From positions 1-31,634 of the IMG/VR virus record IMGVR_UViG_3300007960_000104: 31,634 nt of DNA. One strand, given 5' to 3'. A program made the position numbers and the translations under genes. Below are positions 6,496 to 29,310 of this stretch, in pieces; within the stretch, counting starts at the first letter, position 1; the number at the start of each line of letters is the position of its first letter. The notes below the pieces were generated by a model that was not told the DNA's origin, did not search any database, and saw only the letters and a list, made by a program, of their open reading frames with translations. Source of the stretch: a virus.

Positions 6496-6881
6496 GACAG
6501 AATCGCCTCCGTGCGGATCTCGGTGACCACCCGGATCTTGGCGTTGTCGATGCCGGTCAGCGTGTACTCACACCGGTAGGTCCGACCACCCTTGGGGAAC
6601 GCGGACGCGGCAGGGACCGTGTGGCGGAAGTTGTAGCCGATGCCGTCAATCGTCCAGTACCCGTCCGTCTGGAGCGTCGAGAACACCACATCACCCTTGG
6701 CAAGCGTCGTGGTCCAGACCTCGCTAGGCGGCGTGTCGGCGGTCACATCGAAGACTTTGAGGGCTACGGAGTCTTGGAACGAGGACTGGTTGAGAGCTGA
6801 ACCGTCCGCAGCCACCAGACGGGCAAGGTTCACGGCGGATTCGCCCTCGAAGACAGTGCCAGTTGCTACGCGGCGGCTCAT
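6492..6881 (-). CDS. Beta-rich structural protein, unknown
   Basis: 129 residues from ATG 6881 (ATGA overlap with the upstream stop); its own TGA overlaps the TerS GTG. The sequence alternates polar and hydrophobic residues (VALKVFDVTADTPPSEVW, then YRCEYTLTGIDNAKIRVV) as in immunoglobulin-like or jelly-roll strands. It has no signal peptide or TM segment. Its place directly downstream of three other beta-rich genes suggests a small tail or fibre-attachment protein. Family not recognised. Confidence 0.75.
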   Translation of the reverse strand: MSRRVATGTVFEGESAVNLARLVAADGSALNQSSFQDSVALKVFDVTADTPPSEVWTTTLAKGDVVFSTLQTDGYWTIDGIGYNFRHTVPAASAFPKGGRTYRCEYTLTGIDNAKIRVVTEIRTEAILS

Positions 6882-7450
6882 CGGTCGCCAACCTTCCTGA
6901 CCGTTGCACGGTCAATGCCAGCAGCGGCCACCTGAACAGCAGACACAGCGGCCTCGCCGACCGCAGGGGCAACGCCGAACGGGAACATCAGCACCGTCCG
7001 CAGGTCTCCGGGCGTGGTCCCCGAGCCCGTGCCACCGGGCAGCGTGTCTTGGGTGCTTCCGTTCGTCACAGCTGTTCCAACCGGGATCGCGGCGGTCTCG
7101 TTGTTGGACTCGTCGAAGTAGGTTCCAAACGGGCATTCGATCGTCACCGTGTCGGTGTCGAGGATGATTTCACCCGGAACAGCGGACAAGCCAAGGGCAA
7201 ACAGGTGGTTCGCGGCGTTCGAGTAGGTGGCTTCGAGCGGGGCCGAGTTGTTCTGAGCGTCGAACCCGAGCGATGACAGCACCGGGACCGTGTAGTTCGT
7301 GGCTCCACGGGTGATCGTCAGGGTCGGCAGGCGGTCACCGCGCTGATAGAACGAGGGCGCGTCCCAGTCTCCAGCAGGGGCAGACCAGGCCACGGTCAAG
7401 CCGCGACCACTGGCCAGCACCGAAGCCGAACTGAACGCGGCGACGGCCAT
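6878..7450 (-). CDS. Beta-rich appendage protein, unknown
   Basis: 190 residues from ATG 7450 (TGATG overlap). The N-terminus is mildly hydrophobic (VAAFSSASVLASG) but lacks positive charge for export. The middle has Ig-like strand patterns (GDRLPTLTITRGATNYTVPV) and a segment (SAVPGEIILDTDTVTIECPF) of the kind found in repeat modules of phage fibres, followed by Gly/Thr-rich linkers. The C-terminal 40 residues are Ala/Val-rich. It is probably a virion appendage component made with its neighbours; the exact role is unknown. Confidence 0.75.
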   Translation of the reverse strand: MAVAAFSSASVLASGRGLTVAWSAPAGDWDAPSFYQRGDRLPTLTITRGATNYTVPVLSSLGFDAQNNSAPLEATYSNAANHLFALGLSAVPGEIILDTDTVTIECPFGTYFDESNNETAAIPVGTAVTNGSTQDTLPGGTGSGTTPGDLRTVLMFPFGVAPAVGEAAVSAVQVAAAGIDRATVRKVGDR

Positions 7451-9677: not shown

Positions 9678-10583
9678 ATGGTGCAGGTTGCCATGTGGCT
9701 TGAAAGGGCAATCCCGGACTTCGAGGGCTACCGCGTCCAAGTGCTGCGGCTCGATCCGTACAACTGCCGCAAGGGGTCTTTCGTGATTGAAGCCGCTGCC
9801 GAGCTGATGAACTGGAGATCGACGAACGACCTGACCCCGCCGGCGTGCGTGGAATGGCTGGGCAAGCTCGGGGCTGCCGGGCTGTCCGGGGCCACCATGC
9901 GGAACCGGATGAGCCAGATTCGGGCAATGGGGAAGTGGCTGGTCCAGGTCGGCGAGTGGGATGCGAACCCGCTCCGCGAGGTCCAGACCCCGAAAGTCCG
10001 CATGAGCGACAAGGGGGCCGGGGCTCGGGCATTCACCCGCGATGAGGTCAAGCGGCTGATCGAGGCGGCACGGGTCGCTGAGGGGTCTCACGCTGCGGCT
10101 CGTCGGTTCGGGGCGTGCCGGTCCACCCTGTACCACACGCTGTTTGAGACCGGCCTGAGATACGGCGAGGCGATGGGGCTTCGGGTCTGCGATGTGGACC
10201 TTGCGGGCCGGGTGATCCGGGTCGTGAAGGACAAGGCGGGGCGTGGGGACCGCATCCCGATCGGGCCGGGGACGGCGGCGGTGCTGGCGGCGTGGATCGC
10301 CGATCGCGGTCTGACGGGCCGTGATCCCGTATTCCTGCGGGTCTCACACCGGACGCTGGTTCGGGACATGAAGCGGGCTGGAATCCCCCGTGAGGTCGCT
10401 GGGCAGGCCGGGCAGTGGCATTGTTTCCGCAAAGGCATTGTGACGCACTACTTACGGAACGGTGCGGACCTGAAGACGGTGCAGAAACTGGCTCGGCACG
10501 CGAGCGCGAAGACGACGCTGGATCACTACTACCAGCTCGACGACGGGGCGGTTCGGGCTACGATCGGGTCTGGTGCGTTATGA
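9678..10583 (+). CDS. int: Tyrosine recombinase (phage integrase)
   Basis: 301 residues from ATG 9678; an ATG at 9693 and a TTG at 9630 are alternatives. It joins attP to attB and may also excise. An N-terminal SAM-like core-binding domain (~1-110) precedes the catalytic domain. The catalytic set is visible: Arg161 in ETGLRYGEAMGL, Lys in the KDKAGRGDRIPI hairpin, His248/Arg251 in HCFR, His274 in LARHAS and the Tyr284/285 nucleophile in TTLDHYYQ. A perfect hairpin with T residues follows four bases after the TGA. A folded region with a tRNA-3'-end-like segment, a possible attP, lies 200 bases downstream. Temperate lifestyle follows from this gene. Confidence 0.95.
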   Translation: MVQVAMWLERAIPDFEGYRVQVLRLDPYNCRKGSFVIEAAAELMNWRSTNDLTPPACVEWLGKLGAAGLSGATMRNRMSQIRAMGKWLVQVGEWDANPLREVQTPKVRMSDKGAGARAFTRDEVKRLIEAARVAEGSHAAARRFGACRSTLYHTLFETGLRYGEAMGLRVCDVDLAGRVIRVVKDKAGRGDRIPIGPGTAAVLAAWIADRGLTGRDPVFLRVSHRTLVRDMKRAGIPREVAGQAGQWHCFRKGIVTHYLRNGADLKTVQKLARHASAKTTLDHYYQLDDGAVRATIGSGAL

Positions 10584-10608: not shown

Positions 10609-10717
10609 CGTGACTTTTTCGATTTTCGTTTGCAACCTACCGGAATCGAGCCGATATTCCTGACAGTCACTAGCCCGGTCTCGCACCGTAGAGCGAAAGC
10701 GATACACGAACCGACCA

Positions 10718-10781
10718 CGAATCACGCACCCCCGGCTGGTGACTCTAAGGGGTGAGGGCGCAATGCCCTCCGCGTGATTCG
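10718..10781. repeat. Three-way-junction inverted repeat
   Basis: CGAATCACGC (10718-10727) is perfectly complementary to GCGTGATTCG (10772-10781). Inside, ACCCC (10728-10732) pairs with GGGGT (10749-10753), and GAGGGC (10754-10759) pairs with GCCCTC (10765-10770) around the loop GCAAT. The three helices meet with a single unpaired base (C10771). So compact a junction is unlikely by chance and suggests a folded RNA or a folded recombination or binding site. Function unknown. Confidence 0.65.
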
Positions 10782-10782
10782 C

Positions 10783-10875
10783 GGGGTTCAGGCAGTGGAG
10801 CCGGGGGGAATCGAACCCCCGCTCCCACTTCGGTTGGCAACCTCCTCCCGCTGACCTGATAACTGCCTGAGCCCC
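10783..10875. repeat. Second branched inverted repeat, 14-bp closing stem
   Basis: Bases 10783-10796 (GGGGTTCAGGCAGT) pair with 10862-10875 (ACTGCCTGAGCCCC) by 13 Watson-Crick pairs and one G.T wobble. Within it, GGAGC..GGGGG (10797-10808) pairs with CCCCCGCTCC (10816-10825) with a two-base bulge, and GGTT/AACC (10832-10842) forms a small hairpin. It starts two bases after the end of the three-way-junction element. It may be an attP arrangement, an RNA leader or a regulatory fold. Confidence 0.6.
10796..10840 (-). other. tRNA/tmRNA 3'-end-like segment, candidate attP core
   Basis: Read on the minus strand, a T-arm (GGGGG-TTCGATT-CCCCC) is followed by a seven-base acceptor strand CGGCTCC and discriminator A, the Ala-type end shared by tRNA-Ala and tmRNA; then CTG stands where CCA would be. 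Further 5' lies TTGCCAA, which could be an anticodon-type loop. No matching 5' acceptor (GGAGCCG), D-arm or proper anticodon stem exists, so this is not a working tRNA. Phages that integrate into tRNA or tmRNA genes carry exactly such 3' fragments next to the integrase. Confidence 0.5.
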
Positions 10876-10943
10876 ATTCGCCTTTGGGCTGGGTCGAGTG
10901 CCGTGTTGGTGCTGATCCTGCCCGTCAGTGGATGGGATTTTTT

Positions 10944-11306
10944 ATGTCTGAGCAGAAGCACACGCCGGGACCGTGGTATTGCATACCCGGTGAAGTTGAT
11001 TATGTCCGCGAAGAATACACGGATGCTTGCATTGCCCGTGTGTTTGAGGACAACGGACACGCCGACGAGCGGGGCCGCGAAGACCTGCCCCAAGAAGCCA
11101 ACGCCCGCCTGATCGCCGCCGCGCCTGAGTTGCTGGAGGCGTTGAAGTCGCTGCTTGTCGCCACCGAGTTTGCCATGACCACGCCATCGTGTCCCGAAAA
11201 GGGAACGGTTGTTCCGGCTGAGATGAGCAAGGAACAGTACGAGCAAAAGAGGGTTGTCAAAGCCGCCCGCGCCGCCATCGCCAAAGCAGCAGGCGGTGTG
11301 TCATGA
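10944..11306 (+). CDS. Early phage protein of the HTPGPW/AAPELLEAL type
   Basis: 120 residues from ATG 10944. It opens with QKHTPGPWYCI and contains ANARLIAAAPELLEALKSLL, a pair of motifs found together in a very common but uncharacterised class of small phage early proteins. The tail is Lys/Ala-rich and helical. It is the first gene of the rightward early operon, and its TGA overlaps the next ATG by four bases. Function is not known for the class. Confidence 0.8.
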   Translation: MSEQKHTPGPWYCIPGEVDYVREEYTDACIARVFEDNGHADERGREDLPQEANARLIAAAPELLEALKSLLVATEFAMTTPSCPEKGTVVPAEMSKEQYEQKRVVKAARAAIAKAAGGVS

Positions 11307-14945: not shown

Positions 14946-15058
14946 CTTTCGGCCTACCCGTGAGTGGTCGTCAGTGGTTTGCAGCGAGCCACAACCACGG
15001 GCTCAGGGGTACTCATCCACCCCGAACCGTCTGCTCTCGAAAGGGGGCAGGCGGGATT

Positions 15059-15970
15059 ATGAGATTTCTGTCCCTGTTTTCCGGCATCGGCGGGCTCGAC
15101 CTCGGCCTCGAATGGGCTGGCTGGACCTGCGCTGGTATGTGCGAGTTCGATCCGTGGTGCCGCGCTCTGCTCGCCGAGCGGTTTCCCGGCGTGCCGATCC
15201 ACGACGATGTGACCACGCTGCACCCGGAGCCGGGCGCGTTCGATGTGGTGGTCGGAGGCTTTCCATGCCAGGACATTTCAGTTGCAGGCAAGCAAGCAGG
15301 CATTGACGGCGAGCGATCCGGGCTCTGGAAGGAAATGCACCGTGTCATTGACATTGTTCGACCCCGATGGGTCGTTGCTGAGAATGTGCCTGCTCTCCGC
15401 ACTTCGGGATCAGACCGGGTACTCGGCGACTTGGAGGGAACGGGTTACACCTGCTGGCCGATCGTGGTGGGTGCTGACGACATCGGCGCGCCGCATCGAC
15501 GCAAGCGGGTGTTCATCCTCGGACGAATGGCCGACGCACACTGCGACGCAGTACGGCAGCAACGGGGACGCGCCGGGCGAGATCGGTCCTCGGCGGGGAT
15601 CGCTGCACCAGTCGACTCCGGCATGGCCGACGGCTGGCGCGAACGATCACAAAGGGACAGCGAAGCCGGGACAGAGGCGGGGCCAACTGGACGAAGCGGC
15701 GGAGCAGATTTTCCCCCCGGACCAGCAGACCTCGCCAGATGGCGCATGGTGCTTGAACTTCACCCGGAGCTTGCACCGGCCCAGGCTCAATCCGTGGTTT
15801 GTCGAATGGCTGATGGGCTTCCCGAGCGGCTGGGTCGCCGCTGGAGACGACGCGCTTTGAAGGGGCTGGGAAACGCCGTCGTCCCGCAGGTCGGCCTGCT
15901 CATCGGGGAAACGATCAACCGCTTTGAGGCGGAGAAGATGAACAACAGGGAGGTGACTTGTGGCTGGTGA
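15059..15970 (+). CDS. C5-cytosine DNA methyltransferase
   Basis: 303 residues from ATG 15059. It transfers methyl from SAM to cytosine C5. Visible motifs: I (FSGIGGLDLGLEWAG), IV with catalytic Cys70 (GGFPCQDIS), VI (VAENV, 106-110), VIII (RRKRVFIL, 147-154) and X (LGNAVVPQVG, ~268-277). The target-recognition region between VIII and X is short and very Arg/Gly-rich. It is open in a second frame that also resembles methyltransferase-associated sequence (see the separate entry). No restriction gene is adjacent, so it is an orphan phage enzyme, likely protecting against host restriction. The stop overlaps the next start by 11 bases. Confidence 0.9.
   Translation: MRFLSLFSGIGGLDLGLEWAGWTCAGMCEFDPWCRALLAERFPGVPIHDDVTTLHPEPGAFDVVVGGFPCQDISVAGKQAGIDGERSGLWKEMHRVIDIVRPRWVVAENVPALRTSGSDRVLGDLEGTGYTCWPIVVGADDIGAPHRRKRVFILGRMADAHCDAVRQQRGRAGRDRSSAGIAAPVDSGMADGWRERSQRDSEAGTEAGPTGRSGGADFPPGPADLARWRMVLELHPELAPAQAQSVVCRMADGLPERLGRRWRRRALKGLGNAVVPQVGLLIGETINRFEAEKMNNREVTCGW
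15243..15860 (+). other. Second open frame over the methyltransferase variable region
   Basis: This frame is open for about 600 bases inside the methyltransferase gene. From 15517 on it reads as sequence typical of phage methyltransferase tails: EWPTHTATQYGSNGD, then PTAGANDHKGT, RRGQLDEAAEQI and LNPWFVEWLMGFPSGW, stopping at 15860. The annotated frame over the same bases also looks authentic (RMADGLPERLG). It has no ribosome site of its own, so it would be expressed only by frameshifting. It may instead be the fossil of an older frame. Confidence 0.5.
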
Positions 15971-19593: not shown

Positions 19594-19775
19594 ATCAACT
19601 CGTGAATCAACCCTTCGACCGTGAGTGCGTTGCCTCGGCTAGTGATGTAGGTCTGAGTGTTTCCCTCATCATCGACATAGGTCGTGATGAGCAGCGCAGC
19701 ATCGCAGTGTTCAGCCGCGATGCTGATAGACCGCTCAAACTGCTGGTCTCGATGATCCATAGAACCGCCCCCCAT
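19548..19775 (-). CDS. Small acidic protein, converges with the early operon
   Basis: 75 residues from ATG 19775, whose T is shared with the upstream TGA (TGATG); ATG 19760 after GGGGGGCGG is an alternative. It has an N-terminal helix (QQFERSISIAAEHCDAALLI) and a beta hairpin (TTYVDDEGNTQTYIT). The extreme acidic tail (EQEDEAAESDEDE) ends in TAG. The last 46 bases overlap, antisense, the end of the plus-strand winged-helix gene. Function unknown; the acidic end could mimic DNA, but this is speculation. Confidence 0.6.
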   Translation of the reverse strand: MGGGSMDHRDQQFERSISIAAEHCDAALLITTYVDDEGNTQTYITSRGNALTVEGLIHELIQEQEDEAAESDEDE

Positions 19776-21004: not shown

Positions 21005-21226
21005 ATGAGCAATCAAAACGGAGACTTCACTTTTCAGGTTGGGTGGCGAATCCTCATTGTCGTTCCTATGTGGCTGATCTTTCTTTTTCCCTTGGCCTAC
21101 TTATTCAACCTGTTCGGATGGGACGGGGAAACGGCGGAGCGGTACTGCAAGGGTCTCGCGCTAGTGCCTGGTGTCGCTTTGAGTGCTGCGCTTCTGGCAT
21201 CCTATTTCAGCAGCGGCGATTTTTAG
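21005..21226 (+). CDS. Lone small two-TM membrane ORF
   Basis: 73 residues from ATG 21005. Two TM segments: WRILIVVPMWLIFLFPLAYL and GLALVPGVALSAALLASYF. The ORF stands alone on the plus strand between minus-strand operons. Its TAG overlaps the TAA of the giant protein gene by two bases, tail to tail. TM hairpin texture and a G-rich start region favour a real gene, but there is no homology evidence. It could be a superinfection-exclusion protein expressed from a prophage. Confidence 0.5.
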   Translation: MSNQNGDFTFQVGWRILIVVPMWLIFLFPLAYLFNLFGWDGETAERYCKGLALVPGVALSAALLASYFSSGDF

Positions 21227-24200
21227 AGCGGGTTCGGACGGCGGCTTGATCTTTCCTTTTCAGCCTTTTCCATGTCCCTTCTGATTTTTGAGTGCGATGC
21301 GTAAAGCGGGTTCAAGCCAACCGCCGCGAGTGCTGCGCTCGCAGATTTTTCCATGCTCCGCAAAAACTTTCCTGTTTCAAAATCGTCGTCTTTGTCAAAG
21401 ATGTCAATGATCTCGTCGCCCATGCCAAGCACACCCCTGAACGATTCGTTGATAATTGAAAGTGCTGGAGTGTCAACGCCGATACTTCCAAATCTCCGGT
21501 TGAATATGCCGTCAACGATCTTTGGTGTCACGAACGGATCAATGGTTGCGCCTGCCAAGTCAGACAGGATTTTTCCTGGCGCGTACTCGTCAGGCATCAT
21601 GGCGGCAAAAACTCGTTCCCAAAACTCATCCCACTCACCAGACAAAAGGGTTGCAACAATTACGGTTGCCGCATCCCACGCACCATCAATGACAATCGCG
21701 GAGATCGCGATGTTTATGACCTCGGCTGCAACAGCTCTGGCTCCGTCAGTCTTGGACTTCTGGAACCCGGTGTAGACCATGTTCCTTGCCCTTGAAACCT
21801 CTGATGTAAAGAGGAATAAAGGAGAAATGGCCGTGTTTCGTGCGGCATTCCCGATGTAGGATGAGTCAATAGGGCTTGGGGTCGCCTGAGTCTGTCGCAT
21901 AATGTTCGCTGCGTTCCATGCGACCCACTTCAGCTTCTGGTCGTCAGACCATTCTGGATGCTCTTGATTGACCTGCGCTTCTGATGCGGCCCAAGCGATC
22001 CGTGCAAGCACAGAGTCAAACTTGTTCATGATCTCAAGACTCTTAGTGGACGCTGTTCGCAGTTCCCGGAATGCTGCCGATATGTCTCCAACCTTGAGGT
22101 TGTTGATAGCTCTGCCGATTGCATCTATAGCCCGGTCGTCAGTTGAATCTGCTGTCTGTATTTCCAGTGCGGACGAAAACCGTCCTGTCATATTTCCGAT
22201 GTACCGTTCCCAGAAGAACCCAGAATTACTCACCATGTGCAGCATTGAAACCTTGTGTGCATTCGCAATGCCAGCGGCCCAATACCTCGGGCTTACAACC
22301 GCAGCGAACCTTGTCCCGCCAGAAATCTGGCGAAGCCATGTGCCTGGCTGGGTCAGTAGCCCAATCGAAGCACTCGTGTTGATCTCGCTGGCAACCCTTG
22401 CTCCGGCTCTTGCAATCCTCCCTCCGGTTGCAGCTGAATTGTCGCCGCGAGACATGTGGGCAATGTTGGTCTTCATTGCTTCAAGGCGATTCAGACCGTG
22501 CTTTGCGATAATCTCTCGCTGAACCTCTGGGTGCAAAAGCACCATCGAGACATTTCGGATCGGTTCGGCTAGGTGTGTGATCTTGGCAATGTTGTCAAGG
22601 TGATTGTTCAGTATCTCGGTGAAGTCGCCAATTACAATCGGAGCAGACTTTGGCCCAAACGAGTTGTCACGATCTTTGGTAAGTCCAAGGTTTTCGAGAT
22701 ATCGATTGATTGCTCCATCCCGACCAACTTCCGGGAGTCCAGCGTTTTCTGCCTGATCCAAGGCACGAATCCGAGGGAAATACCCTGGAACGATCTCTGG
22801 CTCCTGTCCTTTGAGTTTCTTGATAACCCGGTACGCCGGTCCTCGACGCTTCTCCATCAAGTCCTTGCCTCGATCAACAAACTCCTTTTGCTGATCGGTC
22901 AACTTGCTGATAATCGCATTGATCTCTGAGTCTGTGATCTTGTGGTTTTTGCTTTTGCGATGCTTGAACTGCGCCTGTGTGCCAGCTAAAAAAGCTGCTC
23001 GTGTTTGGCTGTCCATCGCGTACAGGTGCATTGCCTCGCCGACAGTGATTTCAACTTGCTCGCCGCCAATTTGGACACTCATCATCTGTGTGCTGGCCTT
23101 ACCAGACCCGCGCCTTGTTTTGGATTCAAGGTCTGTATAGGACTTGTACCCAGCATCTTTCGCGCTTTTGGCGTGCGAGTTCGCATCATCCTGCCTCTGC
23201 AGCAGAAATCCGTCCTCACCGTTTGCGACACTCGTGCCGTCGAACCCAAAAATCAACTGCTCAAGTATCGCGTCCCCGTCTGACTTACCCTCGACTATTC
23301 GGATCAAGAGTCTGGTGTCACTGAGCAATGTGCCAGCAGTTCTCCGAACAGACATCTGGTCAGGCGATGCGCCGTCTGCCGACTGCTTTGCGGTCCGCTT
23401 GGAGTTGCCGATGTTTTCAACAACTCTTTTGGCAAACTCATCCCTTGTCAATTTCAGGTTGGCCCCATACGCGATCCGCTGGGCGCGGTAGTAGGCCACT
23501 TCCTCGGCGATCTCACGCTCGATGCGGTTCAGGGCTTCCGCAGCGGCCACGATGTCGTTGGTCTGGATGCCTTGGACAGTCTTGCCCGTCGTCGATCGAG
23601 CGGCCTGACGGGGGCTGACATACGCCTCGCGGCTGTCCTTGAAGGTCTGGATATGCGGCTGGGCCTCACGCAGCATCTCCCGCACCTTCTCGCGGGTCTC
23701 GTTGTCCAGTTTCTTGAGTGCCTTCGGCCCGGCCAGTTGGCGGATCTGATTGATCGCGTGCCGCGCGTCGTACCGGGACAGTTCCCGCCTCATCTTGTCG
23801 ATGCTGTCGGCGAGGTTGCCAAGCGTCTTCGCGTTCATGAGGTCGGGGATGAACCGTCCGTGCAGACTGGCGGGCAGTTCGGCCTCGATCATGCGGCGGA
23901 GCTGCTTGCGGATACCCTCGATCCGATCCTCACGGGCCTTGTCGCGGAGTTTCTGGGCTTCCTTGACCGCCTGACGCATCGCGGGCAGTGTCGCCTTGAT
24001 GGACTTCACCCCGTCGCGGAATGCCTTGCGAGCGGTCTGCTCGTCCCGCTTCAACTGCTTGCGGAGTTCCTTGGCCTCGGTGGACTTGGTTTCCTCGTCC
24101 CCGACGATCTGACGGACCACACGGCTCGCGTCGGCCAGCCCGGTGATCTGACGGACCCGCACCTTGACCGATCGGCGGTCGGGCTCCACGGTCATGCTCG

Positions 24201-27200
24201 CGGCCTGCTCGCGGGCGATCGTGTAGATGTCCTCAATCTGCTCGTTGTTGTACCGGTCACCCCAGCGGGCGCGGAACGCCCTGCGGAAGTCCTGGAGGTT
24301 GCCGATGCCCTTGATGAGATGGCCGATGGACCATTCGAGGACGCTTCCGATCTCGGGGACCGGGTTGGAGTAGAGTCGGCCTTGGTTCTTCTTCTGGCGT
24401 GCCTCGGCCCGGTCGATCATCTTCTGGCCGAGTCGCTGGAGAGCGTTGGGCTTGGGCAGAACGCTGTTCTTGGCCGGTCGAACCTCCGCAACTCCGGGAA
24501 ACTCAGATTGCGACACGGCGATTTGACCGCCTGTTTCGATAGCAGCCAACGCTTTGACTGCAATCGGCTTGTTGCCTTTGTGAATAATCGGCCTGCCCTT
24601 ATTTCTTCCGGGAACATCGAGGCCAGCCGCCTTGAACCTGTCGATCAAATCGGAGTCGCTCAACTTGCGCAGTTCGGCTTCCTTTTCGCGCCTCGCCTGT
24701 TGCGTGTCCTTCAAGTCTTGGACACGGATAAACACCTCATCGCCGTTCTCAACGGTTGACGGGTCGATGCCAAGAGCGGCCAACTGGATCGTGTAGTAGG
24801 ACCGCTGAATATCTCCCTTTGGCTCAGAGACAATCACAAGCCCATCATCTTTGACGAATCCGTAGAGGAATTTGCCATCGTCCGGGTTGTCGGGATCGGT
24901 GCGAACCGCCTGCTTGTCGTTGGCCTGAATCTTGAGCAAGACCTGAACAGCGTCTTGTGTGTTACCGCCTCCAAGACGCGGGTTGAATCCGTCTGAGTAG
25001 ACATACGGAACAGCCGCGTTCGGGTTGTAGTACGCCCGTCCGGTTTCAAGATCAGTTGTGCCAAGCACCTGCTCCGTGGTCGCTACTTCCCCTTCGGCCT
25101 CGACCTTTGACTGCTGGTACGCATTTCGGAACGCGGCCCAATCAACTACGCCGTCACCGGAAACGACACCAAGCGAACGAAGCCGATCAAGCATCTGGTT
25201 GTTGATGAAGAACGATGGCGCGTCTGACTTTCCCTCGGCAATGTCAGCAAGACCTTGCTGTTTGGTTGGGTTCAGAGTGTCACCAAAGACAGACGAGAGC
25301 CACGACCCAGACTCCCTTGAGTCTGCGTCTGCTTGTCGCTGTGACTGCTTGCGGGATTCCTCCTGCCGTGCTTCCTCTGCCTTCCGTTCAGACTCCGCTT
25401 TTTGATCTCCACGGTATCCGTAGTTGTCGAATGTGTCCCACGCCGTTGCTTTGGAGTTCGAGAACCGAACGAGACTGATTGCCGTGTTTGACGATTTTTC
25501 GACCTTGTATCCGTTCCGCAAAGCCAGGTCCGTGAGTTCGGCAACCTGACTGTCCGTGAACCTCGCGCCGATCTTTCTGGGAACGATGGTGGCGTTGTTC
25601 TTGCTGGATACTGACAGTCGCCAGTCACGGAACGACACACGGTCTTTTGGTGCTTCTGTAGGCAGACCGCCTTTGCTCAGGATTTCGTCGATCAAGTCAT
25701 TCCTGGAAAGCGCGAACCTCATGCCAGCACGCTTCGCTCTATTGCGAAGTTCCATGAAGTCCATTGATTCCAGCACGGACCTGTCAACTATCGGCCCTTC
25801 GGCCTCGCCCGCTGGTTGATCCTGTCCCGCAGTTCCCTGATCGTCCGGTACTTGTCCGGCTTGCTGACCGGCTTCCCGTTGGCGGTTTCCAGTTGATACA
25901 GGCCGCTCGGCAGTCTGCGCATCTTCATTGGACCGCCCCCCAAGAATGGCGTTGATGAGTTGCTTTTTGGTCTGGTTCCCTTTGATCTTGGACAGCACGG
26001 CGATGGCCTGAACCTCGCGGTAGGTCTTGGCCTCAAGGTCTGCGCGTGATAATGGCTGGTACTCGCCGCCCTGCTCGGCTTCCGTCGCACGCGGCTCGGT
26101 GCGAGAAATCACGCCGTCACGGATGTATTCGGCCTCTACTTTGCGCAGGTAATCAACCGCCGTAGACGGCTGGTACTGAATCATCGCGCGCAACTTCTGC
26201 TCGTTGTCGCGCCTCGACATTTCGTTCTTGCTTGAAAGGCGATCAATCAGCGTATCGCCGATTCTTGCAAATATCTCTCTGGCTTCTTGCCGGTCGCTGT
26301 TTCGCTGCCGCGCCTCGGATTTTGCATCCTTCTTCTTCTGCTTCTTTGCCTTGTCGATCTCCGCGTCAATGTTTCCACGCTTGGACAACGGCACATTGAC
26401 AACGGCCTGATCCGGCTTCCTGTCTTGTTTTGCCGTCGCACGCGGCTCAGTGCGGGTGTTCTTATTTCGTTCCGCTTCCCTTGCTCGCCATGCCTCTGAC
26501 TCAAGTGATCCACCGGCAAACTGCTTGCTTTGTGTCTTGCCGTTTACCACTTTTGAGAAGTACGGGATGCCCAGCGTATTGCGGCCAGTGACCTCAAACT
26601 CTGTGCCTTCTTTGTCTGTGAACCGGAATCCGTCTTGGAGCGGATCAGACTTGCGAGACTCGTAGATCGGGGACATAGAGTCATTTGATTTTGGCTCGGT
26701 GCGGGTGTCCGCCTCCGCTTGTCCCTCACCCGTGACAGTCGAATCCGCTTGTGTATCACCGGACGGGGTTTGGTTGGAGACAACAGACTGAGTTTTGGAT
26801 TCCGATGGGAAGTAGTGAGTAACACCGACCGACCCTGTTCGGATAATCTGATCCCACGCAAAAAGGGATGGGTTGGTGAGTGACTGATTGGTTCCAGTGA
26901 TTTCAGGTGCTTCAACGACAGCGTATCCAAGCACTTTGTCACCCGAATCCGAAACAGACACAACGGAGTGAACTCGACCCGTCCTGTTGGCCTCGTTTTG
27001 TGCTGCTCGATCCGCAGGCGCACTTGACTTGAATATTGAACCAGACCGCGTTCCCGTGGCCCTTTCTGGCTTGCTGCCGCCCTTTGCCCAATCTTGCAGT
27101 TTCTTGGCGTATCCAGATTCGACAGGTTCATCGAACACTTGCAAGTGTCTCGCCGTGTCCCGCCTGATTTTGGCAATCGACTTCCTAGAGTTGGTCGAAT

Positions 27201-29310
27201 CGTTAGACCATTCGCTTTCCCTGTCACCTGTGAACACTTCCGCCCGTTCCTGTTCACTGGCGGAGTCTTGTGACACTTCCTGTTCATTGACCTCGATCGG
27301 AGTCGCAATCGGCTCCAACGGGTTCAGAATCCGGTCCAGCGTTTCGGCCAAGGGCATCGCACGCTGTTGGGGCATCAGCTCGTCAGGGCTCATCCCCTCG
27401 TTCGGGTCGTAGTTCGGATCTTGGGCCGGGTTCACCACACGGTTGATCGCACGGTTCCGCTCGGTCACAGACCCGCGAGGCTGACGCTGGGCGGGCTGGG
27501 GGACCGTCACCGTCCAGGTCTCGGACCCAAGCAGGTTGTTCACCTCGGCGGTCTGCTCGCCCGGTCTGGTCCGCTTGTTGATCTCACGGGCGTAGGACCG
27601 GGCATCCTGCTCGCTGTTGAACAGGGCCGTCCCGTCCTCCAGAACACGAACCGGCTGCGGTCCTGCGGGCTGCTGCGGGGATGGCGACTGCGGGGCGGGC
27701 TGCGGACCCGGACCCGCCTGAATCGAACCACGGGGCAACTGTCCGGGCTGTGGGGCCGCTCCGGGCTGCTGAGGCCGTCCGAAGACCTCATCGACCGTCA
27801 GACCGCCCTCTGGGGCTCCCTCGGCCTGAGCCCGCTCTACGAGGCCACGGGCGAACGCACTGGCCGCATCGGTCGGCTGCTGGTCTCCACGGCGACGGGC
27901 CTCGACCTGTTGGGTCTGATCCACGGGCTGCTGTGCGGCCCGTACACGCTGTGCTGCTGCCGGTGCTTGGGATCGCAGTTCGTTCTGGAACTGAGCCTGA
28001 TCCTGAACCCTTTGCTGACGGATGCCCTCGATGCCACGGCGAACCATGTTGGCGTTCTGGATCACCACACCGCCGAGCGCACCGCCGCCAAACGCCTCTG
28101 GCACATTGTCCCACAACCCGGTCTCCGGGCTGTAGGTCAATCCCTTCCGGGTGTTATTGATAAACTCGGTGAACCCTTCTTCAAAGCCCTCGACTCCTGC
28201 GGCGGTGGTGTATTGTGTAGCAACGCGAGCCGCACCGCGAGCCCCATCTTTGAGCAAGCTGTCACCGACCTCGGCAAACATTTTGTTTGCAACGCTGTCT
28301 GGAAGGTATCGCAGAGCGTCAATACCAATCCGTTCAATCACAAACTCGGTCGCCGCCGCTCCGGTGCTGTGCAGGATTTCAGCCGTGATTGAAGGGTCAA
28401 GGCCGCGACGCTCCATCTCCTTGCGGTAGTCCTGACCCTCGTTGCCGAACGCCGTGATCGCGTAGTAGGTCATCACCGATGGCATTGACACCGAAGCTGA
28501 ACCAACTGCCAAGACGGACGGTATTACTGATCCGGTCATAGAACCAGCAGAACCAGCCCATGTGTCGTAGGTGTTGCTCTGTAATGCCGCCTGCTCCGCG
28601 TCGGCAAGTCGGTCAAACTTTTCGGCCTCGCCCTCAAATCCAGTGGCTCGCAATGCGGTTGCAATCGTTCCCATTGTGCCACGGGTCAATGGACGAACCA
28701 AAGCAGCTCTCTGAGAACGGGCGTACTCGGTTAGCGCGCCGACATTATCTGGATCGTTTTGGGCAAGACGAACAAATGAGTCGCCTGGGTCTAGCATTCC
28801 CTCAGAGGTGTACGATCCTCCTTGATTTCGGAAGTTCTGCGCGGCAATAGCAAACCGCACAAGCCGGTCGTCCTTGCTGGCGTTTTTGTGCCTTTTTCGG
28901 AACTCATCAATGTCATCGCTGGTGACATCAGGAACACGCTCGACTACGCCAAGCGGCAAGCGGTACTCCATTGCCTGCTTTCGCATTGATTCGTATGTCA
29001 ACCTTTCCGCAAGGGTCAGGTCTTCAAACATTTTTCCGCGAAATGATGATGGCTCCTGTGGAGGCGGCGCGTAACTCGGAAGGGTTGACCCCGGTCTCTT
29101 TGGTCCACCAACTTGAGTGGTCAGTATTTCAGGAAACTCTATTGGCCTGTTTTGATTCGTCTGGATTCCGAGACGCTCCAAAACCCAGTCTGGCGGAACC
29201 TGACCAATTATTTCGCCGGACTCAAAGCGGTCGGCGTTTTCAACTGGATCGGTTATGCCCTTTGCCTTGCGGTATTGGGCCAAGATTTCCTGCGCGCTGA
29301 TCTGTGTCAT
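21223..29310 (-). CDS. Giant polyvalent / DNA-ejection-type virion protein (2695 aa)
   Basis: 2695 residues, ATG 29310, TAA. Architecture: charged N-terminus; Gly/Ala hydrophobic stretches at ~245-305 and ~365-390 (GVEGFEEGFTEFINNTRKG), likely membrane-interacting; Pro/Gln-rich linker ~440-560; disordered region with three TRTEP-type repeats (~868, 951, 1068); two SAP/Rho-N-like helices (~1083-1122, ~1177-1214); a long charged helical region ~1650-1960; a domain ending VPGYFPRIRAL near 2180; hydrophobic C-terminal segment ~2515-2580 (AISAIVIDGAWDAATVIVAT). This matches large polyvalent internal virion proteins of short-tailed phages that enter the cell with the DNA. No lysozyme or polymerase motif was recognised. 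Confidence 0.8.
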   Translation of the reverse strand: MTQISAQEILAQYRKAKGITDPVENADRFESGEIIGQVPPDWVLERLGIQTNQNRPIEFPEILTTQVGGPKRPGSTLPSYAPPPQEPSSFRGKMFEDLTLAERLTYESMRKQAMEYRLPLGVVERVPDVTSDDIDEFRKRHKNASKDDRLVRFAIAAQNFRNQGGSYTSEGMLDPGDSFVRLAQNDPDNVGALTEYARSQRAALVRPLTRGTMGTIATALRATGFEGEAEKFDRLADAEQAALQSNTYDTWAGSAGSMTGSVIPSVLAVGSASVSMPSVMTYYAITAFGNEGQDYRKEMERRGLDPSITAEILHSTGAAATEFVIERIGIDALRYLPDSVANKMFAEVGDSLLKDGARGAARVATQYTTAAGVEGFEEGFTEFINNTRKGLTYSPETGLWDNVPEAFGGGALGGVVIQNANMVRRGIEGIRQQRVQDQAQFQNELRSQAPAAAQRVRAAQQPVDQTQQVEARRRGDQQPTDAASAFARGLVERAQAEGAPEGGLTVDEVFGRPQQPGAAPQPGQLPRGSIQAGPGPQPAPQSPSPQQPAGPQPVRVLEDGTALFNSEQDARSYAREINKRTRPGEQTAEVNNLLGSETWTVTVPQPAQRQPRGSVTERNRAINRVVNPAQDPNYDPNEGMSPDELMPQQRAMPLAETLDRILNPLEPIATPIEVNEQEVSQDSASEQERAEVFTGDRESEWSNDSTNSRKSIAKIRRDTARHLQVFDEPVESGYAKKLQDWAKGGSKPERATGTRSGSIFKSSAPADRAAQNEANRTGRVHSVVSVSDSGDKVLGYAVVEAPEITGTNQSLTNPSLFAWDQIIRTGSVGVTHYFPSESKTQSVVSNQTPSGDTQADSTVTGEGQAEADTRTEPKSNDSMSPIYESRKSDPLQDGFRFTDKEGTEFEVTGRNTLGIPYFSKVVNGKTQSKQFAGGSLESEAWRAREAERNKNTRTEPRATAKQDRKPDQAVVNVPLSKRGNIDAEIDKAKKQKKKDAKSEARQRNSDRQEAREIFARIGDTLIDRLSSKNEMSRRDNEQKLRAMIQYQPSTAVDYLRKVEAEYIRDGVISRTEPRATEAEQGGEYQPLSRADLEAKTYREVQAIAVLSKIKGNQTKKQLINAILGGRSNEDAQTAERPVSTGNRQREAGQQAGQVPDDQGTAGQDQPAGEAEGPIVDRSVLESMDFMELRNRAKRAGMRFALSRNDLIDEILSKGGLPTEAPKDRVSFRDWRLSVSSKNNATIVPRKIGARFTDSQVAELTDLALRNGYKVEKSSNTAISLVRFSNSKATAWDTFDNYGYRGDQKAESERKAEEARQEESRKQSQRQADADSRESGSWLSSVFGDTLNPTKQQGLADIAEGKSDAPSFFINNQMLDRLRSLGVVSGDGVVDWAAFRNAYQQSKVEAEGEVATTEQVLGTTDLETGRAYYNPNAAVPYVYSDGFNPRLGGGNTQDAVQVLLKIQANDKQAVRTDPDNPDDGKFLYGFVKDDGLVIVSEPKGDIQRSYYTIQLAALGIDPSTVENGDEVFIRVQDLKDTQQARREKEAELRKLSDSDLIDRFKAAGLDVPGRNKGRPIIHKGNKPIAVKALAAIETGGQIAVSQSEFPGVAEVRPAKNSVLPKPNALQRLGQKMIDRAEARQKKNQGRLYSNPVPEIGSVLEWSIGHLIKGIGNLQDFRRAFRARWGDRYNNEQIEDIYTIAREQAASMTVEPDRRSVKVRVRQITGLADASRVVRQIVGDEETKSTEAKELRKQLKRDEQTARKAFRDGVKSIKATLPAMRQAVKEAQKLRDKAREDRIEGIRKQLRRMIEAELPASLHGRFIPDLMNAKTLGNLADSIDKMRRELSRYDARHAINQIRQLAGPKALKKLDNETREKVREMLREAQPHIQTFKDSREAYVSPRQAARSTTGKTVQGIQTNDIVAAAEALNRIEREIAEEVAYYRAQRIAYGANLKLTRDEFAKRVVENIGNSKRTAKQSADGASPDQMSVRRTAGTLLSDTRLLIRIVEGKSDGDAILEQLIFGFDGTSVANGEDGFLLQRQDDANSHAKSAKDAGYKSYTDLESKTRRGSGKASTQMMSVQIGGEQVEITVGEAMHLYAMDSQTRAAFLAGTQAQFKHRKSKNHKITDSEINAIISKLTDQQKEFVDRGKDLMEKRRGPAYRVIKKLKGQEPEIVPGYFPRIRALDQAENAGLPEVGRDGAINRYLENLGLTKDRDNSFGPKSAPIVIGDFTEILNNHLDNIAKITHLAEPIRNVSMVLLHPEVQREIIAKHGLNRLEAMKTNIAHMSRGDNSAATGGRIARAGARVASEINTSASIGLLTQPGTWLRQISGGTRFAAVVSPRYWAAGIANAHKVSMLHMVSNSGFFWERYIGNMTGRFSSALEIQTADSTDDRAIDAIGRAINNLKVGDISAAFRELRTASTKSLEIMNKFDSVLARIAWAASEAQVNQEHPEWSDDQKLKWVAWNAANIMRQTQATPSPIDSSYIGNAARNTAISPLFLFTSEVSRARNMVYTGFQKSKTDGARAVAAEVINIAISAIVIDGAWDAATVIVATLLSGEWDEFWERVFAAMMPDEYAPGKILSDLAGATIDPFVTPKIVDGIFNRRFGSIGVDTPALSIINESFRGVLGMGDEIIDIFDKDDDFETGKFLRSMEKSASAALAAVGLNPLYASHSKIRRDMEKAEKERSSRRPNPL
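26083..26708 (-). repeat. Three dispersed TRTEP-type linker repeats in the giant gene
   Basis: Three copies of a short element encoding (T/S)RTEP(R/K) lie at about 26083-26107, 26434-26459 and 26689-26708. The first two share CGTCGCACGCGGCTC and then a GTGCG end at the DNA level; the third keeps GGCTCGGTGCG. They sit in the low-complexity middle of the protein between folded segments and look like domain-joining linkers. Confidence 0.7.

Follow-up and report, generated by a model that had tools for sequence, protein, structure and literature searches.

A conserved fold around an ssrA-derived attP core, a candidate structured leader of a phage early operon

The window analyzed here is an IMG/VR virus record taken at its full length of 31,634 bases. 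Two inverted-repeat elements lie in the gap between the stop codon of its integrase gene (10583) and the ATG at 10944, exactly where the first-pass annotation had placed them. The gap leads into an early operon that includes a RecE-like nuclease, a RecT-like annealing protein, and a replication-initiation-like protein (phrog_2509); a C-5 cytosine DNA methylase is also found among the early genes (14960–15970, + strand; PF00145, 1.7e-40), and an open frame of 2695 residues with no Pfam match occupies 21223–29310 on the − strand. The features of the gap are collected in Table 1 together with their equivalents in L004 (IMGVR_UViG_3300010392_000805), a relative with an integrase 51% identical to that of the window. 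The promoter-like sequence falls under the threshold of our consensus scanner, which found no promoter in the window or in L004. An intrinsic terminator before the ATG was considered and rejected: the window has a single weak match (10921–10936), with none at the corresponding place in L004. The T-run found there may be only a spacer after the Shine–Dalgarno-like sequence.

Table 1. Features of the gap and its flanking genes (window positions)
Feature	Position	Strand	Remarks
Arm-less tyrosine integrase	9678–10583	+	301 aa from ATG 9678; open frame from 9630
Promoter-like TTGC-N19-GATANT	10630–10658	+	Conserved at L004 5971–5999
S1 5′ strand, AGTCACTAGCC	10665–10675	+	Partner 10734–10744; L004 equivalents 6005–6015/6074–6084
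Conserved unpaired-type blocks, GCGAAAGCGA (10693–10702) and ACGAACCGA (10706–10714)	10693–10714	+	Identical in L004
Element 1	10718–10781	+	Closing stem S2 10718–10727/10772–10781; hairpin b 10754–10770
S1 3′ strand, GGCTGGTGACT	10734–10744	+	Within element 1; S1 crosses S2 (pseudoknot layout)
Element 2	10783–10875	+	Closing stem S3 10783–10796/10862–10875; S3 arms flank attP core
attP core, ssrA 3′ end (T-arm and acceptor 3′ strand)	10796–10820	−	25 nt
Stem CCCATTC/GGATGGG covering Shine–Dalgarno-like sequence	10873–10936	+	CCC common with S3 3′ arm; L004 6227–6285
First early-operon ORF, HTPGPW protein, phrog_1273, function unknown	10944–11306	+	Homologous start at L004 6294

The integrase matches only PF00589 (1.3e-20) and PF02899 (1.2e-4) in Pfam, that is, the SAM-like and catalytic domains, and no arm-binding domain was found by Pfam in its 301 residues. 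It also matches PHROG integrases. Its solved relatives are XerA, a XerC-like protein, XerD, IntI4, and, as a weak match, 5vfz "Gp33," which we take to be the Brujita integrase; an oddly labeled ribosomal-entry chain (9i5v) was returned as well. Among the named phages that match at ∼30% identity are Redi and Butters, both presumably members of cluster N.

The tRNA-3′-like arm that the first-pass annotation had seen in element 2 proved to be the T-arm and acceptor 3′ strand of ssrA. When viral contigs were searched with the 25-mer 10796–10820 (− strand), this core was found in 20 stretches. It overlaps a tmRNA in 13 of them (ten called by ARAGORN and L019, L007, and L023 by Rfam above gathering, the Rfam search covering 7 of the 20 loci) and a tRNA-Ala in two (ARAGORN), so that tRNA-Ala may be a minor alternative target; the remaining five are the attP of the relative in Table 1 (L005), the far junction of a prophage (L008), L012, L016, and L017. 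That prophage belongs to IMGVR_UViG_3300012921_000081, where a complete tmRNA (L019:3438–3784, 154 bits) ends in the core and an integrase homolog adjoins it on the opposite strand (HMM of alignment A2, E 1.3e-54). The second copy of the core (L008:5819–5843) is the other prophage junction, and joining the flanks in silico gave an uninterrupted ssrA as the empty site. The prophage, whose arm-less tyrosine integrase is homologous to that of the window, is bounded by an intact ssrA on one side and by the 25-nt core on the other; we therefore firmly assign the core of the window as attP, and the rejoined gene identifies, by comparison, the 3′ end of ssrA as the target of this integrase family.

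A functional tmRNA or tRNA in element 2 was rejected, since ARAGORN found no tRNA or tmRNA gene in the window and RF00023 (tmRNA) scored 25.7 and 15.6 bits, under its gathering score of 47 bits. None of 4227 Rfam families reached gathering score in the window, and the gap and L004 gave sub-threshold matches only. Two further observations concern the core loci. In IMGVR_UViG_3300012921_000081, the integrase frame crosses attP (L019:3633–4068 with L008), so that its C terminus differs between the free and integrated states. In IMGVR_UViG_3300020235_000072, an 88-nt tmRNA match (L007:14520–14607, 52 bits, model positions 1–374) near the end of a 50-kb viral contig comprises both tmRNA ends, with nearly the whole middle missing.

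Integration at the ssrA 3′ end is known, for example, from Dehalococcoides islands, whose recombinase is of the serine type and whose repeat measures 20 bp (PMC3146451). In both cases, the core corresponds to the 3′ end of ssrA, and integration restores the gene and leaves a direct repeat at the far end; unlike the islands, the phage of the window has a tyrosine integrase, a 25-nt core, and conserved folds around the core.

Both elements fold in the window as had been described. Element 1 has a 10-bp closing stem, a 5-bp arm, a 6-bp arm (10754–10770), and a single unpaired C; element 2 has a 14-bp closing stem that includes one U·G pair (10787/10871); and 1 nt separates the two closing stems. 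Folding energies were better than those of 200 dinucleotide shuffles under both parameter sets, with z scores of −2.8 to −5.7 overall (−4.2 to −5.7 for element 1 and −2.8 to −5.4 for element 2). With RNA parameters, the z scores on the + and − strands were −4.2 and −5.2 for element 1 and −5.4 and −2.8 for element 2; with DNA parameters, they were −5.1 and −5.7 for element 1 and −4.0 and −2.8 for element 2. Low energy alone is not unique: five of 987 64-nt segments reached z ≤ −4.15 in a + strand scan (20 shuffles each) whose phase missed the exact position of element 1. The lowest value in that scan (−6.8) came from 19662–19725, which sits within a − strand open frame. The unusual feature is the side-by-side placement. 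The two elements form the only abutting pair among 15 stems in the whole window (at least 10 bp, at most one G·U, span 40–120), and an abutting pair appeared in none of 3000 dinucleotide shuffles of the 360-nt gap and in 1 of 3000 for L004, which upholds the earlier judgment that chance is a poor explanation for the pair.

We compared the gap with that of L004, which has exactly the same core and the same downstream ORF start. The core is inverted relative to int between the two phages (10796–10820, − strand, in the window; L004:6158–6182, + strand), with the gene order the same; if both use ssrA, int would come to lie on opposite sides after integration, and the two prophages would be oppositely oriented. 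(An early gene of L004 carries tandem RGADL-type pentapeptide repeats at 6820–6960.) Each gap contains exactly three stems of at least 10 bp, in the order S1, S2, S3, and in both a single base separates S2 from S3. S1 has 11 bp and a span of 80 in both phages and crosses S2, the coordinates giving a first loop of 42 nt in each. Pairs changed on both sides number 2 of 11 in S1 (one more changed on one side), 7 of 10 in S2, 3 of 6 in hairpin b, 3 of the 12 common pairs in S3 (two more changed on one side), and 1 of 7 in the stem over the Shine–Dalgarno-like sequence, with no pair broken in the last four. Across all five helices, 46 of 46 pairs are kept: 26 are unchanged, 4 differ on one side, 16 differ on both, and none is broken. 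Sliding the partner kept 18–25 of 46, a lenient control because the helices were picked for being possible in both sequences. Compensatory changes of the kind looked for are thus present in the one relative, and the conserved fold, carried by the window and L004 only, is well supported for these two phages. The predicted probability of S3 in L004 is just 0.07–0.35 in a long transcript. The third attP of the family, in IMGVR_UViG_3300012921_000081, is without the leader, and the int frame runs through it.

The three-way junction proposed for element 1 does fold in the window, but its 5-bp arm is poorly kept. In L004, this arm is reduced to 3 bp (CGG/CCG) and overlaps the longer crossing stem S1. 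Duplex energies in the window and L004 are −18.3 and −22.1 kcal/mol for S1 and −6.9 and −3.7 kcal/mol for the arm. Given the much greater stability of S1 relative to this local arm, the three-way junction was rejected as the form in which element 1 works, and it is probably not the main form.

Conserved repeats of this kind could also be double-stranded DNA sites for proteins, the arms of S1 and S3 binding excisionase, repressor, or integrase and the hairpins being by-products. The arms of S1 (WGTCACYMGCC) are matching inverted 11-mers spaced 69 bp center to center in both phages, one of them adjoining the promoter-like sequence, and in the third attP, a 9-bp repeat brackets the core. However, perfect repeats bracketing the core were equaled by 242 of 2000 shuffles for the window, 75 of 2000 for L004, and 39 of 2000 for the third attP, and bracketing alone is therefore weak evidence. 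In S2 and hairpin b, moreover, nearly all letters changed yet the pairing is kept, whereas the adjoining unpaired blocks are identical; Pfam finds no arm-binding domain in the integrase; and the rest of the window shows no enrichment of the S1 motif (7 matches at ≤1 mismatch vs. 4.46 expected). We consider protein sites a possible explanation, although a doubtful one.

The first-pass annotation had further suggested an attP used in folded single-stranded form. The attP part of that suggestion held, resting on the ssrA-end core and the two junctions left by the homologous integrase. Recombination as a folded single strand, in the manner of integron attC sites, appears highly improbable: the prophage of the family joins at an ordinary ssrA through a double-stranded core, element 1 lies outside the core, and the attC box (GTTRRRY) is absent from the arms of S2, CGAATCACGC and GCGTGATTCG, which lack GTT. 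These points outweigh an arm-less integrase with IntI4 among its solved relatives and folded strands that are stable under DNA parameters.

The position of the structure directly 3′ of int on the same strand, with S3 spanning attP, would also suit a retroregulator resembling lambda sib: a 3′ element on the int mRNA that is lost or changed upon integration. The conserved stem that covers the next ORF's ribosome-binding site points instead to the downstream gene, and we judge retroregulation of int unlikely. Because it reaches as far as this ORF, the stem links the structure with the mRNA of the ORF and likewise speaks against a replication origin or a free-standing phage noncoding RNA, the latter having been another of the earlier suggestions. 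A gene-free stretch of 360 bp with palindromes and a replication-initiation-like protein downstream would be in keeping with either, but no short repeated iterons were found among the direct repeats; taken jointly, an origin or a free-standing RNA is very unlikely.

Our best reading, to which we give a probability of roughly one-half, is that the + strand of the gap encodes a structured leader RNA for the early operon, one that encloses attP and is split by integration. A structured early-operon leader had been among the proposals of the first-pass annotation, and the compensatory changes in L004 favor it; we infer action as RNA from these two sequences. The + strand is the better folder in three of four comparisons, and GCGAAAGCGA and ACGAACCGA are identical in L004 while the stem letters change, which counts for RNA. 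The imperfect pairs within S1, S2, and S3 are G·U on the + strand, a weak indication because the stem finder allowed G·U only. The conserved fold likely acts as RNA.

A + strand transcript would start near 10665, directly past the promoter-like sequence, fold into S1, S2 with hairpin b, S3, and the stem over the ribosome-binding site, and lead into the early operon. Because the arms of S3 flank the core, a crossover must separate them: one end of the prophage would carry S1, S2, and the 5′ arm of S3, and the opposite end the 3′ arm and the early operon. The leader would then be intact in the free phage only, and the early operon of a lysogen would be cut from both the leader and the promoter-like sequence. 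In the simplest case, a continuous leader running from ∼10665 into the early operon would be read in the free phage and not in the lysogen. A switch in which S3 alone frees the Shine–Dalgarno-like sequence was rejected, since the computed access was 0.00–0.05 in every context, free and cut alike. More tentatively, and at rather long odds, the leader could be a phage riboregulator of integration state, a pseudoknotted RNA in which S3 forms only while attP is unbroken, so that the early operon would learn whether the phage is free or integrated with no repressor gene being cut; this sensor role is speculation. In known cases of genes rewired by integration, attP is located within a repressor gene, or a control element is found on the far side of attP. 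If real, a conserved RNA fold built around the point of crossover would couple integration to gene control at the RNA level, and the odd tRNA-like arm is explained as a tmRNA gene end.

The phage shares with those showing integration-dependent immunity a short integrase, an Int homologous to the type that we take to be cluster N, an attP core derived from an RNA gene, and a functional unit that is cut. The latter phages (clusters G, N, and P) have an attP without arm-type sites that lies within the repressor gene (PMC9262239), whereas the attP of the window lies in a gap, apparently in an RNA leader. The core lies between int and the HTPGPW ORF, where no repressor frame was recognized. The retroregulation of lambda int by sib (PMC5300877) offers a second parallel, in that a structured element stands by int and attP and its link to the gene depends on integration; unlike sib, the arms in the window straddle the core and lead into the following ORF. 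Among the papers searched, we found no account tying attP to a leader RNA or 5′ UTR with prophage and integrase and none of retroregulation combining attP, integrase, and RNase III, which suggests, as far as these searches reach, that the arrangement is not in print.

Further relatives were sought with several queries. The integrase, as a single sequence and as an alignment, retrieved two viral contigs, L003/L025 (99% identical, ending inside int) and L004/L026, and the alignment had no match among genome contigs; the RecE-like neighbor retrieved one fragment. The L004 leader gave no match in the phage collection and one short match among plasmids. A leader pattern found only the contig of L004 among viral contigs and two genome loci, both without the fold. 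A pattern of the T-run plus HTPGPW found that contig and three loci without an integrase match, and a separate, looser pattern found 23 stretches, the contig of L004 and 22 others. Among these 22, an 8-bp stem surrounds the motif in L031 and L033 only and is unlike element 1.
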